From Candidatus Gastranaerophilales bacterium (GTDB lineage Bacteria > Cyanobacteriota > Vampirovibrionia > Gastranaerophilales > Gastranaerophilaceae), in contig CALUYE010000005.1 in NCBI GenBank assembly GCA_944324945.1, forward strand, positions 1 to 64,000: 64,000 nucleotides of DNA. Direction: 5' to 3'. The number at the start of each line of letters is the position of its first letter. Position 1 is the first letter of the stretch. The position numbers were made by a program, and so were the translations under genes. The notes under the pieces were generated by a model. The model saw nothing but the letters and a program-made list of their open reading frames with translations. It was not told where the DNA came from and did no database searches. Below, one piece after another: positions 16,296 to 21,098 of the stretch.

Positions 16296-18200
16296 TTAAT
16301 TTAGTTCATTTATTTTTATATTTTTATTTATGGGATTATATTTTATTGCATTATAGTGTTGTTTATTAACGGTTTTTGTATTTAGAATAATTTCAAACAT
16401 TAAAAAAACAACAAGCAAAAAGGCAATAATCGCATTTGACTTTTCACAAAGATGAATATTTTTTGTTTTCAAATAAACGGTCATATTTTTTAAAGATAAT
16501 GAAAACAAAACAAAAATAAGAATAAAGAAATTTTGCGAAAACAAAAAACCCATATCGGGACACCACAAAAAATTACACACATAATTATATAAAATTGCAC
16601 CCAATACAGAAAAATACAATACCACATCCTCTTTTTTTACCCGATTGTTTTTAAATAAATAAAAATTATAAAACATGGCTAATATAAAAACAGCATAAAA
16701 TAAGTACGCAGGATTCCAAGAAGAAGAATAAACAAAAGGATTCAAGAGGGTTTCTTTGTGGAAATAATTCAGATTTAATTTAGGATTTTTTACAATATGT
16801 CTTCCAATCCTTTCTTTACTTGTTGCAAGACTTTTATATGATGCATTATTGTTCATTAAAGAATTAAAAGCGATGAAAAAAGCAACCAAAATAAACAGCA
16901 TAATAAAAAAACCTGTTATTGTTCTAAAATAGTTTGCCGTTTTTATTTTTTTATTACTTATAACAAACAACGGGAATATTAATATTAAACAGGTAACAAT
17001 ACTAATCATATTCACACCAAATATCAAAGATGAAACAATGGCTGTTAAAATTAAATTATTATAATTTCCTGTTTTTATTTGTTTTAATACTAAATACGCC
17101 AATATCGATAAATAAAAACCGGCAATAATATATAAATCAAAAATATAAGACATTAAAAGCTGTGTTAAACTAAACATAAAGATAAATACAAGTAAGTATT
17201 TTATTATTTTTAGTTTAGGAATTATTAAATTTAAAATTTTATATAAAAACACAACCGATAACGATGCAAGAGTATACCAGATAAGACTAAGGGAAAGGTA
17301 AAGATTACGAGTAACAAACATCAGAAATTCATACAAAGGATATAAAGGCAAGAAAAAATACGGATGAAACTGTTTTGCCTGCCCCGTGTGTATTGCCTGA
17401 ATAACCCAAATAGCATCACCTTGCATATATGTCTTATCGATAAATCCTTGCTGTACAATACGGGTCAGGTGATTAACATGTTGTGAAGCGTAAAAATTAT
17501 AAACAAAGTAAACAAAAAAAGAAATTATAAAAACCAACAATTCAAATCTGTGCTTATTTACAAAATTTTTTAAATTAAAACTCTCCAATTTTGATATTAA
17601 ATACAAAAAAATAAAAACATAAACAGCAAATAATATAGAAAAAATTACATAATTTTTAACACCGGGCTCATCGTAATTAGAAATATATTTACATTTCGTT
17701 TCAACAGCATAAATTATCCTATCCGCTATAGGGGGGGGAGGAGAAATTACTGAATTAATTGACTCATTTTTGAGCATTTCTATGTTATTTATTTTAAAAC
17801 TTTTAAATTCAACATTTTTATTATAAAAAGTACTCTTGCTTTGTTGTATTTTTATTCTGTTGTGATTTTTTGCTATGATATTAAATTTATATGTTTTAAA
17901 CTCATTAAATAAAGACAAGGTAATACGTTTTTTATGTTTATTATTTTTTTGACTATAAAAAGATATTATTGGAATATATGGTTGTATCGGCTCTAATTGT
18001 ACATCGTCTTTATTGCCTTCATACGATAAATATATAAAAAATGTATCAGGTATATTCCCTTTTTTGCTCCAATATTCAGAATCTAAATAAAAATGCTGCG
18101 AAAAAAAGATTAAAATTAAAGCAAGAAAAAAAGATAAAAAAATATTTCCCTTTTTATATTTTTTAAAATAAGAAATAATATGCTTAATCAATTTTTTCAT
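16296..18200 (-). CDS. Large polytopic membrane protein, GT-C-like candidate, with C8 tract (paralogue of 7818-9701)
   Basis: About 634 residues from the ATG at 18198-18200. That start aligns with the N-terminus of the paralogue; an upstream in-frame start at 18281 would add 27 residues. Same plan: N-terminal helix, extracytoplasmic domain with SQHFYLDSEYW, then about ten helices with QFHPYFFLPLYPLYEFLMF, YIFDLYIIAG and AIKYNP. The function is unknown; a membrane glycosyltransferase is plausible. The coding strand contains eight consecutive C (window 17731-17738) encoding part of SPPPP in the extracytoplasmic domain, absent from the paralogue and a possible phase-variation site. It is divergent from the first twin-arginine radical SAM gene. 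Confidence 0.7.
   Translation of the reverse strand: MKKLIKHIISYFKKYKKGNIFLSFFLALILIFFSQHFYLDSEYWSKKGNIPDTFFIYLSYEGNKDDVQLEPIQPYIPIISFYSQKNNKHKKRITLSLFNEFKTYKFNIIAKNHNRIKIQQSKSTFYNKNVEFKSFKINNIEMLKNESINSVISPPPPIADRIIYAVETKCKYISNYDEPGVKNYVIFSILFAVYVFIFLYLISKLESFNLKNFVNKHRFELLVFIISFFVYFVYNFYASQHVNHLTRIVQQGFIDKTYMQGDAIWVIQAIHTGQAKQFHPYFFLPLYPLYEFLMFVTRNLYLSLSLIWYTLASLSVVFLYKILNLIIPKLKIIKYLLVFIFMFSLTQLLMSYIFDLYIIAGFYLSILAYLVLKQIKTGNYNNLILTAIVSSLIFGVNMISIVTCLILIFPLFVISNKKIKTANYFRTITGFFIMLFILVAFFIAFNSLMNNNASYKSLATSKERIGRHIVKNPKLNLNYFHKETLLNPFVYSSSWNPAYLFYAVFILAMFYNFYLFKNNRVKKEDVVLYFSVLGAILYNYVCNFLWCPDMGFLFSQNFFILIFVLFSLSLKNMTVYLKTKNIHLCEKSNAIIAFLLVVFLMFEIILNTKTVNKQHYNAIKYNPINKNIKINELN
17731..17738. 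repeat. G8/C8 homopolymer tract inside a membrane-protein gene
   Basis: Eight G on the plus strand (eight C in the coding strand of the gene at 16296-18200), preceded in the coding strand by CTCCT. Loss or gain of one base would shift the frame in the extracytoplasmic domain. In this AT-rich window such runs are rare. Confidence 0.75.
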
Positions 18201-18294
18201 CAATCCACAATATACAAATACAATAATACCATAAGCAATGCAATAGATAAAATATTTGTTTGCCCCAGAAGAAATTAACAACTATAATTTTAAT

Positions 18295-19212
18295 ATGAAA
18301 AGACGTGATTTTTTAAAAGACGCAGGGCTTATTACAGCAGGATGCACACTTGGGTCAATAGGTACTTATAAATTTATTGAAAACAAAACCGCAATAAAAA
18401 CAAATTCTGCATTCAAAGACAAAAATTGCGACTGGATATCTCATATTGAAATTTCTCTTTGCTATCATTGCAATTTAAATTGTGCGCGATGTATGCACTG
18501 TTCTCCAATTGCTCCTGTATATTATATGCCTTTAGATATTTTTGAAAAAGATATAGCAAGAATGTCTAAAATCACAAACAGCAAAATAAGAAATGTTATG
18601 CTGCTTGGAGGTGAACCCCTTTTAAACAAAAATATTGAAGAATATATTAAAATTACAAGAAAATATTTCAAAAACTCGCAAATAGTAATCAGCACAAATG
18701 GACTGCTCTTAAACGATATGCCGGAGCAATTCTGGCAGACTTGCGCAAAATACAATATAGAAATCTGGCATACCCTATATCCGCTCCACACAAAAAATCC
18801 AAACTTATCAAAATCATACCAAAAAGCTATCCAATACAAAGTTATATTATCTCCATACACAAGATACACATTTGCGCAAATGAACTTAGATGATAAAAAA
18901 CAAAATAAAATATGTGAGACATATAAAAAATGCAGATACAGAATTAAATCCACAATTATTGACAATGGTATACTATATCCTTGCCCGGTTATCTTTTCAA
19001 CAAAATTATTTTTAAATAAATATTTCAAAAGTAAAGCACTCCCAATTAGCAATAATGACTTTATTGACATATATAAATTAAACTCTATAGCCGAGTTTCA
19101 ACAATTCTTAAAAGAACCAAAAGACTTCTGCAAATACTGTAATGCACAATATGTTCCGCAAAAACTCTGGGCTTTATCTAAAAAGGAAATGTGCGAATGG
19201 TTTAATATTTAA
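18295..19212 (+). CDS. Radical SAM protein with twin-arginine-like N-terminus (copy 1 of 5)
   Basis: 305 residues. It starts MKRRDFLKDAGLITAG, a twin-arginine (RRxFLK) plus hydrophobic segment typical of Tat signals. The radical SAM cluster CX3CX2C is C59-C63-C66 (CNLNCARC), followed by LLGGEPLLN and, near the C-terminus, YPCP and FCKYCNAQ cysteines of a SPASM/auxiliary-cluster type. The ATG at 18295 is preferred to one 13 codons upstream because the paralogues start at the same place and TATAAT (18283-18288) ends 6 nt before it, with no Shine-Dalgarno, suggesting a leaderless mRNA. It heads a tandem of three related genes. Substrate unknown; a peptide- or glycan-modifying role is possible. 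Confidence 0.8.
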   Translation: MKRRDFLKDAGLITAGCTLGSIGTYKFIENKTAIKTNSAFKDKNCDWISHIEISLCYHCNLNCARCMHCSPIAPVYYMPLDIFEKDIARMSKITNSKIRNVMLLGGEPLLNKNIEEYIKITRKYFKNSQIVISTNGLLLNDMPEQFWQTCAKYNIEIWHTLYPLHTKNPNLSKSYQKAIQYKVILSPYTRYTFAQMNLDDKKQNKICETYKKCRYRIKSTIIDNGILYPCPVIFSTKLFLNKYFKSKALPISNNDFIDIYKLNSIAEFQQFLKEPKDFCKYCNAQYVPQKLWALSKKEMCEWFNI

Positions 19213-19255
19213 AATTTTCAAACATATTATTAGCTAATATGGTATAATTTTATTT

Positions 19256-20158
19256 ATGGTAAATAGAAGAAATTTTCTAAAAAATGCCGCAATATTCACA
19301 TGCGGATATTGTCTGGGAAATATAAGCACAAATTTTCATAATTTCAATATACTTAACAAAAACCAAGATAATATCTTTTTTCGCGTATCTTTCATGATAA
19401 CACATCACTGCAACCTAAACTGCGCAGGATGTGATCATTTTTCCCCTTTAGCTCCGATTTATTTTATGCCTCTTGACATTTTTGAAAGAGATATTATCCA
19501 ATTATATAAACTAACAAAAGAAAATCCTCCGCAAATAACATTAATGGGAGGAGAGCCGTTACTTAATAAAAACATCAGTGAATACATAAAAATTGCAAGA
19601 AAATATTTTAAAACAAAAATTTTAGTATACACCAACGGATTATTGTTAAATGATATGCCTGACGAATTTTGGAAGTCATGTTCTGATTACGATGCAGAAA
19701 TTTATTACACTCATTACATTCTTCATAAAAATTTTCCAAATCTAAGTTATGCACACAATCAGGCAAAAAAATATAACGTGAAGTTAACATCAAGTCCTCC
19801 ACGATACGACTTTTATAAAATTGAATTAAACAATAAAAAAATAAATAACAATAAAGAAGTTTACAAAACATGCAGCGAAAAAGGCTCTTGCTGCGTTATA
19901 GATAATGGCATCTTATATCCCTGTCAAATACTTGCGGGAGTTAAACTGTTTTTTAATAAATTCTTCATAAACAATGCTTTTTTAATAACCAAAAAAGATT
20001 TTATAGATATTCATGCAATCAAAACTCAAGATGATATATCAAACTTTTTTAAAAAACCGAAAAATTTCTGCAAATACTGTAATTATGGCACCAACAATAT
20101 AGAAAAACTAAAATGGCGCTACTCCAAAAAAGAAATCTATGAATGGCTAAAAGCATAG
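19256..20158 (+). CDS. Radical SAM protein with twin-arginine-like N-terminus (copy 2 of 5)
   Basis: 300 residues, clearly homologous to the preceding gene. The N-terminus MVNRRNFLKNAAIFTCGYC has the RRxFLK motif and a hydrophobic stretch. The iron-sulfur cysteines are C52-C56-C59 (CNLNCAGC), followed by LMGGEPLLNKN and C-terminal cysteines in SEKGSCC, YPCQ and FCKYCNYG. Extended -10 TGGTATAAT (hexamer 19243-19248) ends 7 nt before the ATG, so it has its own promoter and a probably leaderless transcript even though copy 1 ends only 43 nt upstream. Its reaction is unknown. Confidence 0.8.
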   Translation: MVNRRNFLKNAAIFTCGYCLGNISTNFHNFNILNKNQDNIFFRVSFMITHHCNLNCAGCDHFSPLAPIYFMPLDIFERDIIQLYKLTKENPPQITLMGGEPLLNKNISEYIKIARKYFKTKILVYTNGLLLNDMPDEFWKSCSDYDAEIYYTHYILHKNFPNLSYAHNQAKKYNVKLTSSPPRYDFYKIELNNKKINNNKEVYKTCSEKGSCCVIDNGILYPCQILAGVKLFFNKFFINNAFLITKKDFIDIHAIKTQDDISNFFKKPKNFCKYCNYGTNNIEKLKWRYSKKEIYEWLKA

Positions 20159-20198
20159 CATAATTTATAACTCATTTCATATTTAAAAAGGAATAAAA

Positions 20199-21098
20199 AT
20201 GGAAAGAAGAGAGTTTATCAAAAAAAGTTGTATACTTTCAAGCACATGTATTTTAAGTTCGCTTTGTTTAAATATTTCAAAAAATAAAAAGACGCAAAAC
20301 AACATCCAAGAAACGCTGCCGCATGTCGAATTTATGATTTCCAAACACTGTAATTTAAACTGCGCATACTGTAGTTATTTTTCTCCTTTAGCCCCCCCCC
20401 CCTCGTTTTTGCCGCTTGACATATTTGAAAAAGACATTATTCAGCTTCGCAGGATAACAAACTCGAAAGTTAATAAAATTGTGTTACTTGGAGGAGAGCC
20501 GTTACTTAATAAAAACATAAAAAGTTATATAAAAATTGCAAGGGAAAACTTTAACAATTCACACATTTTTATTATAACAAACGGACTTCTTCTAAACGAA
20601 ATGCAAGAAGACTTTTACAAGACATGCGCTGACTATAAAATAACCATTCAATATAGTATATATCCGCTTTACAAAAAATATCCCAATCTGGAAAAAGCGC
20701 AAAAAAAGGCGCAAAAATTTAACATAAACCTGAAAGGTAGATGGAGAAAAAAGAAATATAAATTCTCACTGGTTCAATTAAGTACAAAAAAACTTAATGA
20801 TAAATCAGTTAAATATAAAGAATGCAAAAACAAAATTCATTACGCTCAACTCGATAACGGCAGGTTATATCCTTGTCCTACAATCCCCGGTATAAATATT
20901 TTTAACAACTATTTTAAAGAAAATGCAATACCTCAAAGCGATAACGACTATATCGATATATACAAAATAAAAACATTGCAAGAAATATTTGATTTTTTAA
21001 AGACTCCGAAAGAAGCTTGCAAATATTGCAACTATGGTTCGAAACAGGCAATTTGGAAACCCTCTGAAAGAAAAATATCTGAGTGGTTTGATGTTTAG
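20199..21098 (+). CDS. Radical SAM protein with twin-arginine-like N-terminus and C11 tract (copy 3 of 5)
   Basis: 299 residues. The N-terminus MERREFIKKSCILSSTCILS again has RRxFIK and a hydrophobic run. Cluster cysteines are C51-C55-C58 (CNLNCAYC), then LLGGEPLLNKN, YPCP and ACKYCNYG. Unlike copies 1 and 2 it has a Shine-Dalgarno (AAAGGA, about 8 nt before the ATG). The codons for APPPS just after the cluster contain eleven consecutive C (20392-20402), where copies 1 and 2 have APVYYM and APIYFM. The tract is in frame as assembled, but would abolish the protein if it slipped. The gene ends 1 nt before the convergent speB stop. Confidence 0.8.
   Translation: MERREFIKKSCILSSTCILSSLCLNISKNKKTQNNIQETLPHVEFMISKHCNLNCAYCSYFSPLAPPPSFLPLDIFEKDIIQLRRITNSKVNKIVLLGGEPLLNKNIKSYIKIARENFNNSHIFIITNGLLLNEMQEDFYKTCADYKITIQYSIYPLYKKYPNLEKAQKKAQKFNINLKGRWRKKKYKFSLVQLSTKKLNDKSVKYKECKNKIHYAQLDNGRLYPCPTIPGINIFNNYFKENAIPQSDNDYIDIYKIKTLQEIFDFLKTPKEACKYCNYGSKQAIWKPSERKISEWFDV
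20392..20402. repeat. C11 homopolymer tract inside a radical SAM gene
   Basis: Eleven C in a row, beginning after a G at 20391 and ending before TCG. It lies about 195 nt into the coding region, directly after the cluster-binding cysteine codons. Paralogues have no C run at this place. Length and context are those of contingency tracts known from Campylobacter and Helicobacter. Confidence 0.85.

Follow-up and report, generated by a model that had tools for sequence, protein, structure and literature searches.

The window analysed here is a stretch of 64,000 nucleotides from a Gastranaerophilales genome (G000; 1.92 Mb in 15 contigs). The Gastranaerophilales are non-photosynthetic gut relatives of the Cyanobacteria, and the glucose-6-phosphate isomerase of the assembly, at up to 88 % identity to proteins of named bins, agrees with this placement. 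Neighbouring radical SAM genes lie on the forward strand of the window beside a membrane-protein gene on the reverse strand, and the last of them contains a run of eleven cytosines (C11). The features of this locus are listed below, with the basis of each assignment in brackets.

16296..18281, reverse strand: divergent gene for a multi-pass membrane protein of 661 aa without a Pfam family (ORF and Pfam)
17731..17738, reverse strand: C8 run in this membrane-protein gene (encoding SPPPP), ranking third in length among the C runs of the genome (run scan)
18295..19212, forward strand: radical SAM paralogue without a C run (APVYYMP), with an alternative TTG start at 18256 (ORF and alignment)
19256..20158, forward strand: radical SAM paralogue without a C run (APIYFMP at the tract site) (ORF and alignment)
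20199..21098, forward strand: Twitch-type radical SAM gene of 299 aa that carries the tract, with a Tat-like N-terminus, ERREFIKK (ORF, Pfam, alignment and predicted structure)
20349..20372, forward strand: codons for C51 to C58, the CX3CX2C cluster motif of radical SAM enzymes (read from the sequence; the same in all 12 paralogues)
20392..20402, forward strand: C11 tract, coding for the end of A65 and for P66-P68 (sequence, run counts and in-silico length changes)
20417..20419, forward strand: TGA that closes the frame at one extra C, giving a 73-aa product (sequence and length changes)
20455..20457, forward strand: TAA that closes the frame at one fewer C, giving an 85-aa product (sequence and length changes)

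The product of the tract gene matched the Pfam family Radical_SAM (PF04055) with 51.9 bits against a cut-off of 29.5 and, together with the invariant CX3CX2C motif and the predicted fold, this places it in the radical SAM superfamily. Four cysteines in the C-terminal part (C209, C226, C274 and C277) are also invariant in the 12 paralogues; in sequence they are Twitch/SPASM-like and represent candidate ligands of an auxiliary cluster. About a dozen related radical SAM genes (12-14) are present in the genome, clustered on contigs C1, C2 and C5. When orthologues were sought in the genus, the best match outside this genome was 39 % identical, too distant for a comparison of tract length between orthologous genes, and a protein scan of genome contigs found no relative. 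Ten of the radical SAM paralogues (18295-21098 and loci L151 and L152) begin with RRxF(L/I/F)K, in many cases followed by a cysteine-rich stretch, and their N-termini resemble Tat or lipoprotein signals in sequence. TatC is present in the genome, and the matches to the Pfam family TAT_signal were weak (4 of 12 proteins; best E-value 0.024). To our knowledge, export would be an uncommon trait for a radical SAM enzyme.

The first-pass annotation had placed a C11 run right after the cluster-binding codons, in a frame that is open as assembled (APPPS), and had expected a one-base slip to truncate the protein to about one quarter of its length. All of this was borne out. Positions 20392-20402 hold 11 consecutive C and no more, in frame within the ORF, and the encoded A65-P66-P67-P68-S69 begins seven residues past C58 of the motif C51xxxC55xxC58. 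When the length of the run alone was altered, products of 298 aa (C8), 72 aa (C9), 85 aa (C10), 299 aa (C11), 73 aa (C12), 86 aa (C13) and 300 aa (C14) were obtained. A one-base slip thus leaves 72-73 or 85-86 aa in place of 299 aa (24-28 % of the protein), and any change in length other than a multiple of three stops translation shortly past the cluster motif, with most of the barrel missing. The length of C11 is taken as assembled, and the source is probably a metagenome bin.

When C runs were counted on both strands of the genome, 69 C6, two C7, one C8, no C9 or C10 and two C11 runs were observed (74 runs of at least six, five of at least seven and three of at least eight). With a five-fold drop per added base from the two C7 runs, chosen as a generous extrapolation, approximately 0.003 runs of C11 or longer are expected, versus the two observed. 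The C11 run is a clear genome-wide length outlier. As at known contingency loci, it is a long homopolymer, over-represented relative to its genome and located within a gene, and a change by one unit abolishes the full product (72-73 or 85-86 versus 299 aa). Two of the three longest C runs of the genome, C8 and C11, lie within 2.7 kb of each other; this C8 and the second C11, on contig C1, had escaped the first-pass annotation. Codon usage can be ruled out as the source of the tract because CCC makes up 21 % of the proline codons and GCC 11.5 % of the alanine codons in sampled genes, where ordinary PPP or GGG stretches use mixed codons.

In the alignment of the 12 paralogues the sole extra residue at the tract column belongs to the tract protein and falls exactly at the tract (APPPSFLPLD versus APIYFMPLD, APVYYMPLD or APKYEMPVE). 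The paralogues have A-P-(V/I/K)-Y at this site, written with different codons and without a C run, which confirms what had been noted for them before. The first-pass annotation had also named an outcome that would speak against a switch, namely conservation of PPP through varied codons in relatives. When this was examined, PPP was found in none of the 11 other paralogues, nor in the family homologues inspected, so the tract does not appear to be kept for the sake of the protein. A C8 run would match the length of the paralogues, and from the sequence we infer that C11 may be a former C8 lengthened by three bases.

A total of 28 genomes of the genus were surveyed for C runs of at least nine bases. 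Four of them contained many (21 in G023, 23 in G024, 15 in G025 and 28 in G026) and most others had 0-2. Long runs are scarce in the genome under study, as in most of the genus (G001-G022). Its own phasome is therefore not large, which counts against the switch reading. G-run lengths were strongly bimodal in the stretches that were fetched (18 G6, 2 G7, 11 G8 and more than 90 G9-12), which were mostly centred on tracts and hence selected for long runs. The 74 tract-gene rows from G023-G026 were mostly surface-glycan genes, including FkbM methyltransferases, glycosyltransferases, polysialyltransferase-like proteins, AlgX-like acetyltransferases, pyruvyltransferases and NeuB. Radical_SAM and FkbM were tied as the commonest Pfam families among these rows with six each, although two of the six Radical_SAM rows are halves of one gene and the genes therefore number five. 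The membrane gene with the C8 run was considered as a homologue of the AlgX-like tract genes of the sister species and rejected, as phmmer found nothing.

Related radical SAM genes carry tracts in both open and closed frames. In G026, the ends of contigs C23 and C67 overlap by 116 bases with a single difference, C10 versus C9. This tract lies inside a radical SAM gene, whose frame is open with G10 (...DFKNIIDVLFDSEGGGLNRIDIIQLIGGEPLL...) and stops after EGGGLTELI with G9. The simplest reading is that the assembly split where the sampled population holds both lengths; an error of the assembly could also account for the difference, though with lower probability. Two radical SAM paralogues of G204 have a C run at the same N-terminal-proximal site, one open with C8 (302 aa) and the other closed with C9. 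Further radical SAM genes carry a G11 in frame just ahead of GGEPLL (G079) and a G9 with an open frame (G023).

Contingency loci based on homopolymers are a classical form of genetic switch. The outlier length, the effects on the frame, the lack of PPP conservation and the open and closed tracts in related radical SAM genes support the contingency-locus layout that had been noted at this site, and we consider the C11 run to be probably a homopolymeric contingency tract. Phase variation at the tract is very plausible on this analysis. Slipped-strand mispairing would change the run by one base at a high rate, and the population would then be a mixture of C8, C11 and C14 cells with the enzyme and C9, C10, C12 and C13 cells without it. 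Steps of three bases would merely gain or lose a proline in a loop. As the enzyme likely modifies a sugar of the envelope or some comparable surface product (see below), switching would change the cell surface.

Alternatively, the tract may be neutral and slippage-prone: it would have lengthened by chance in one member of a redundant set of about a dozen paralogues, where it is tolerated rather than kept as a switch. With 12-14 related radical SAM genes in the genome the loss of one may cost little, and C runs of at least nine bases number only two here and 0-2 in most of the genus. However, C7-C10 runs are nearly absent while C11 occurs twice, without a smooth tail, the frame is intact, and radical SAM and glycan genes repeatedly bear such tracts in sister species; a neutral origin is thus unlikely. 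Much less likely still is an error of sequencing or assembly, by which the true run would be shorter or longer with no biological variation. Homopolymers are prone to such errors, and the family genome G224 has suspiciously uniform G10 runs on one contig strand, but the assembled C11 length keeps the frame open, even runs of C8 or longer are exceptional in this genome, and mixed lengths of 9-14 occur in the other genomes examined. Finally, a conserved polyproline element required by the enzyme and CCC-coded by chance would agree with the in-frame PPP but is hardly credible, as PPP is missing from 11 of 11 paralogues and from the family homologues inspected and a pure GCC-CCC-CCC-CCC is improbable with this codon usage.

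An AlphaFold2 model of the tract-gene product was built from a 12-sequence alignment (mean pLDDT of 82; residues 1-36 below 50). The closest solved structure was SpeY (PDB 7wzv; TM 0.69, 21 % identity), with weaker matches to MoaA, BtrN (4m7t) and others. The tract is located in a loop ahead of helix 73-87, and this loop could, judging by the model, tolerate one proline more or fewer. SpeY is a Twitch radical SAM dehydrogenase, and the substrates that SpeY and BtrN oxidise are sugar or cyclitol hydroxyls. The tract-gene product resembles them in its radical SAM barrel and Twitch-like C-terminus, with four C-terminal cysteines that are invariant in the paralogues, but differs in its low identity to SpeY (21 %) and in the Tat/lipoprotein-like N-terminus of the paralogues here. 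Oxidation of a sugar hydroxyl is therefore a reasonable guess from the model and not a result.

Among the neighbours of the tract gene is that for the 661-aa membrane protein, which likely belongs to the same envelope cluster as the radical SAM genes; the other immediate neighbours are housekeeping genes. Judged by eye, the paralogue clusters adjoin glycosyltransferase-like membrane proteins, and the one on contig C1 has neighbours resembling heptosyltransferase and pyruvyltransferase. Based on the SpeY/BtrN fold, the membrane-protein neighbour and the classes of genes that bear tracts in sister species, a surface role of the tract gene is likely, on indirect evidence.

Most studies of phase variation by homopolymer slippage concern pathogens, among them Campylobacter, Helicobacter and Neisseria. 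The first-pass annotation knew of no phase-variable radical SAM enzyme, which proved incorrect, as the radical SAM genes CFT03427_1545, G(9-10), and CFT03427_1558, G(9), of Campylobacter fetus are listed by PhasomeIt (PMC6321876). These genes (MoaA/NifB/PqqE/SkfB family) also carry a poly-G tract, which in CFT03427_1545 has more than one length among isolates, whereas the tract described here lies directly past the cluster motif; the likeness was drawn from the family listing. More generally, the poly-G/C loci of Campylobacter and Helicobacter (PMC6321876; H. canadensis, PMC2823697) are similar in having G/C runs of at least seven bases in ORFs, many of them in surface-structure genes, in the open and closed frames among relatives and in 3'-end tracts that swap C-termini, as at the second C11 of this genome (see below). 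They differ from the present case in phylum, in that the C strand of the gene bears the tract here, and in that the candidate locus is known from one assembled length. No published report of phase variation in Gastranaerophilales was found in a literature search conducted largely outside subscription journals. The C11 locus and its relatives suggest slippage switching in uncultured gut relatives of the Cyanobacteria, with radical SAM enzymes and surface sugars as its targets, joined in other genera by pilins. Switching at the C11 locus is a prediction that can be tested in any deeply sequenced gut metagenome.

The tracts of G023-G026, when read in the G-run orientation, have common flanks near TCCGA-Gn-CTAGAAG, with the genes in either sense. 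A flank weight matrix (the choice of matrix being our own) was trained on three genomes and tested on the fourth, and separated tracts from G4-5 runs with AUC values of 0.91, 0.80, 0.73 and 0.68 (p values of 4e-9 to 0.005 across the four held-out genomes). CTAGA followed tracts seven times where 0.1 would be expected; homologous pairs account for some of the seven. The flanks of the C11 tract, ACGA-G11-CTAAAGGAG, scored within the top 2.4 % of G4-5 runs. The signal may come partly from shared codons and is treated as a lead only. At C11 the flanks read as normal codons of the conserved SPLAP motif, so no inserted element need be invoked. Spread of tracts by a mobile repeat was considered and rejected, as the flanks (+/-150 bp) lacked long similarity except in evident copies or homologues, and the flank pattern had no match in viral contigs.

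Across the family, C runs of ten or more bases occur in 175 of 229 genomes, with a maximum of 176 in a 2.2-Mb genome. Some Gastranaerophilales genomes of about 2 Mb contain more than 100 G/C tracts. Many of these are at prepilin leaders, and glycan, radical SAM and DNA-methylase genes carry others. PhasomeIt (PMC6321876) gives 18-39 phase-variable genes for strains of C. jejuni. We tentatively raise the idea, which we doubt more than we believe, that Gastranaerophilales phasomes are among the largest of any bacteria and that, with the oriented flank context, their tracts are seeded or maintained in a site-directed manner and not by plain slippage at arbitrary runs.

In G036 and G224, from other genera of the family (loci L261-L310 and L262-L330), most sampled G/C tracts are located just before prepilin N-terminal motifs (FTMAEILLSL / FTLAEVLVTL). 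This holds for 24 of 30 tracts in G036 and for 26 of 37 tracts in G224, with a few double counts caused by overlapping loci. Tract lengths in G036 are 11-14, with nine frames open and 14 closed or unclear. The pattern suggests a very large set of pilins subject to phase variation. On contig C1 of G224 (397 kb), all listed C10 runs are on one strand and every sampled run is exactly 10, which points to an oriented element or else to an upper limit set by the assembly on homopolymers, so the tract lengths of G224 are not to be trusted. Contig C1 of G026 (L120) contains two N6_N4 DNA methylase genes with G10 tracts, possibly a phase-variable methylation regulon.

The second C11 run of the genome under study (contig C1, 652486-652496), read as G11, lies close to the 3' end of a gene for a calcineurin-like phosphoesterase (L155:6600-7508, contig C1). 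The length of the run sets the tail of the protein, which becomes LEGGGARR, LEGGGG or LEGGGLEDRENSIIIYKNRY, and this swap of C-terminal tails resembles the way in which C-termini are switched in H. canadensis (PMC2823697).
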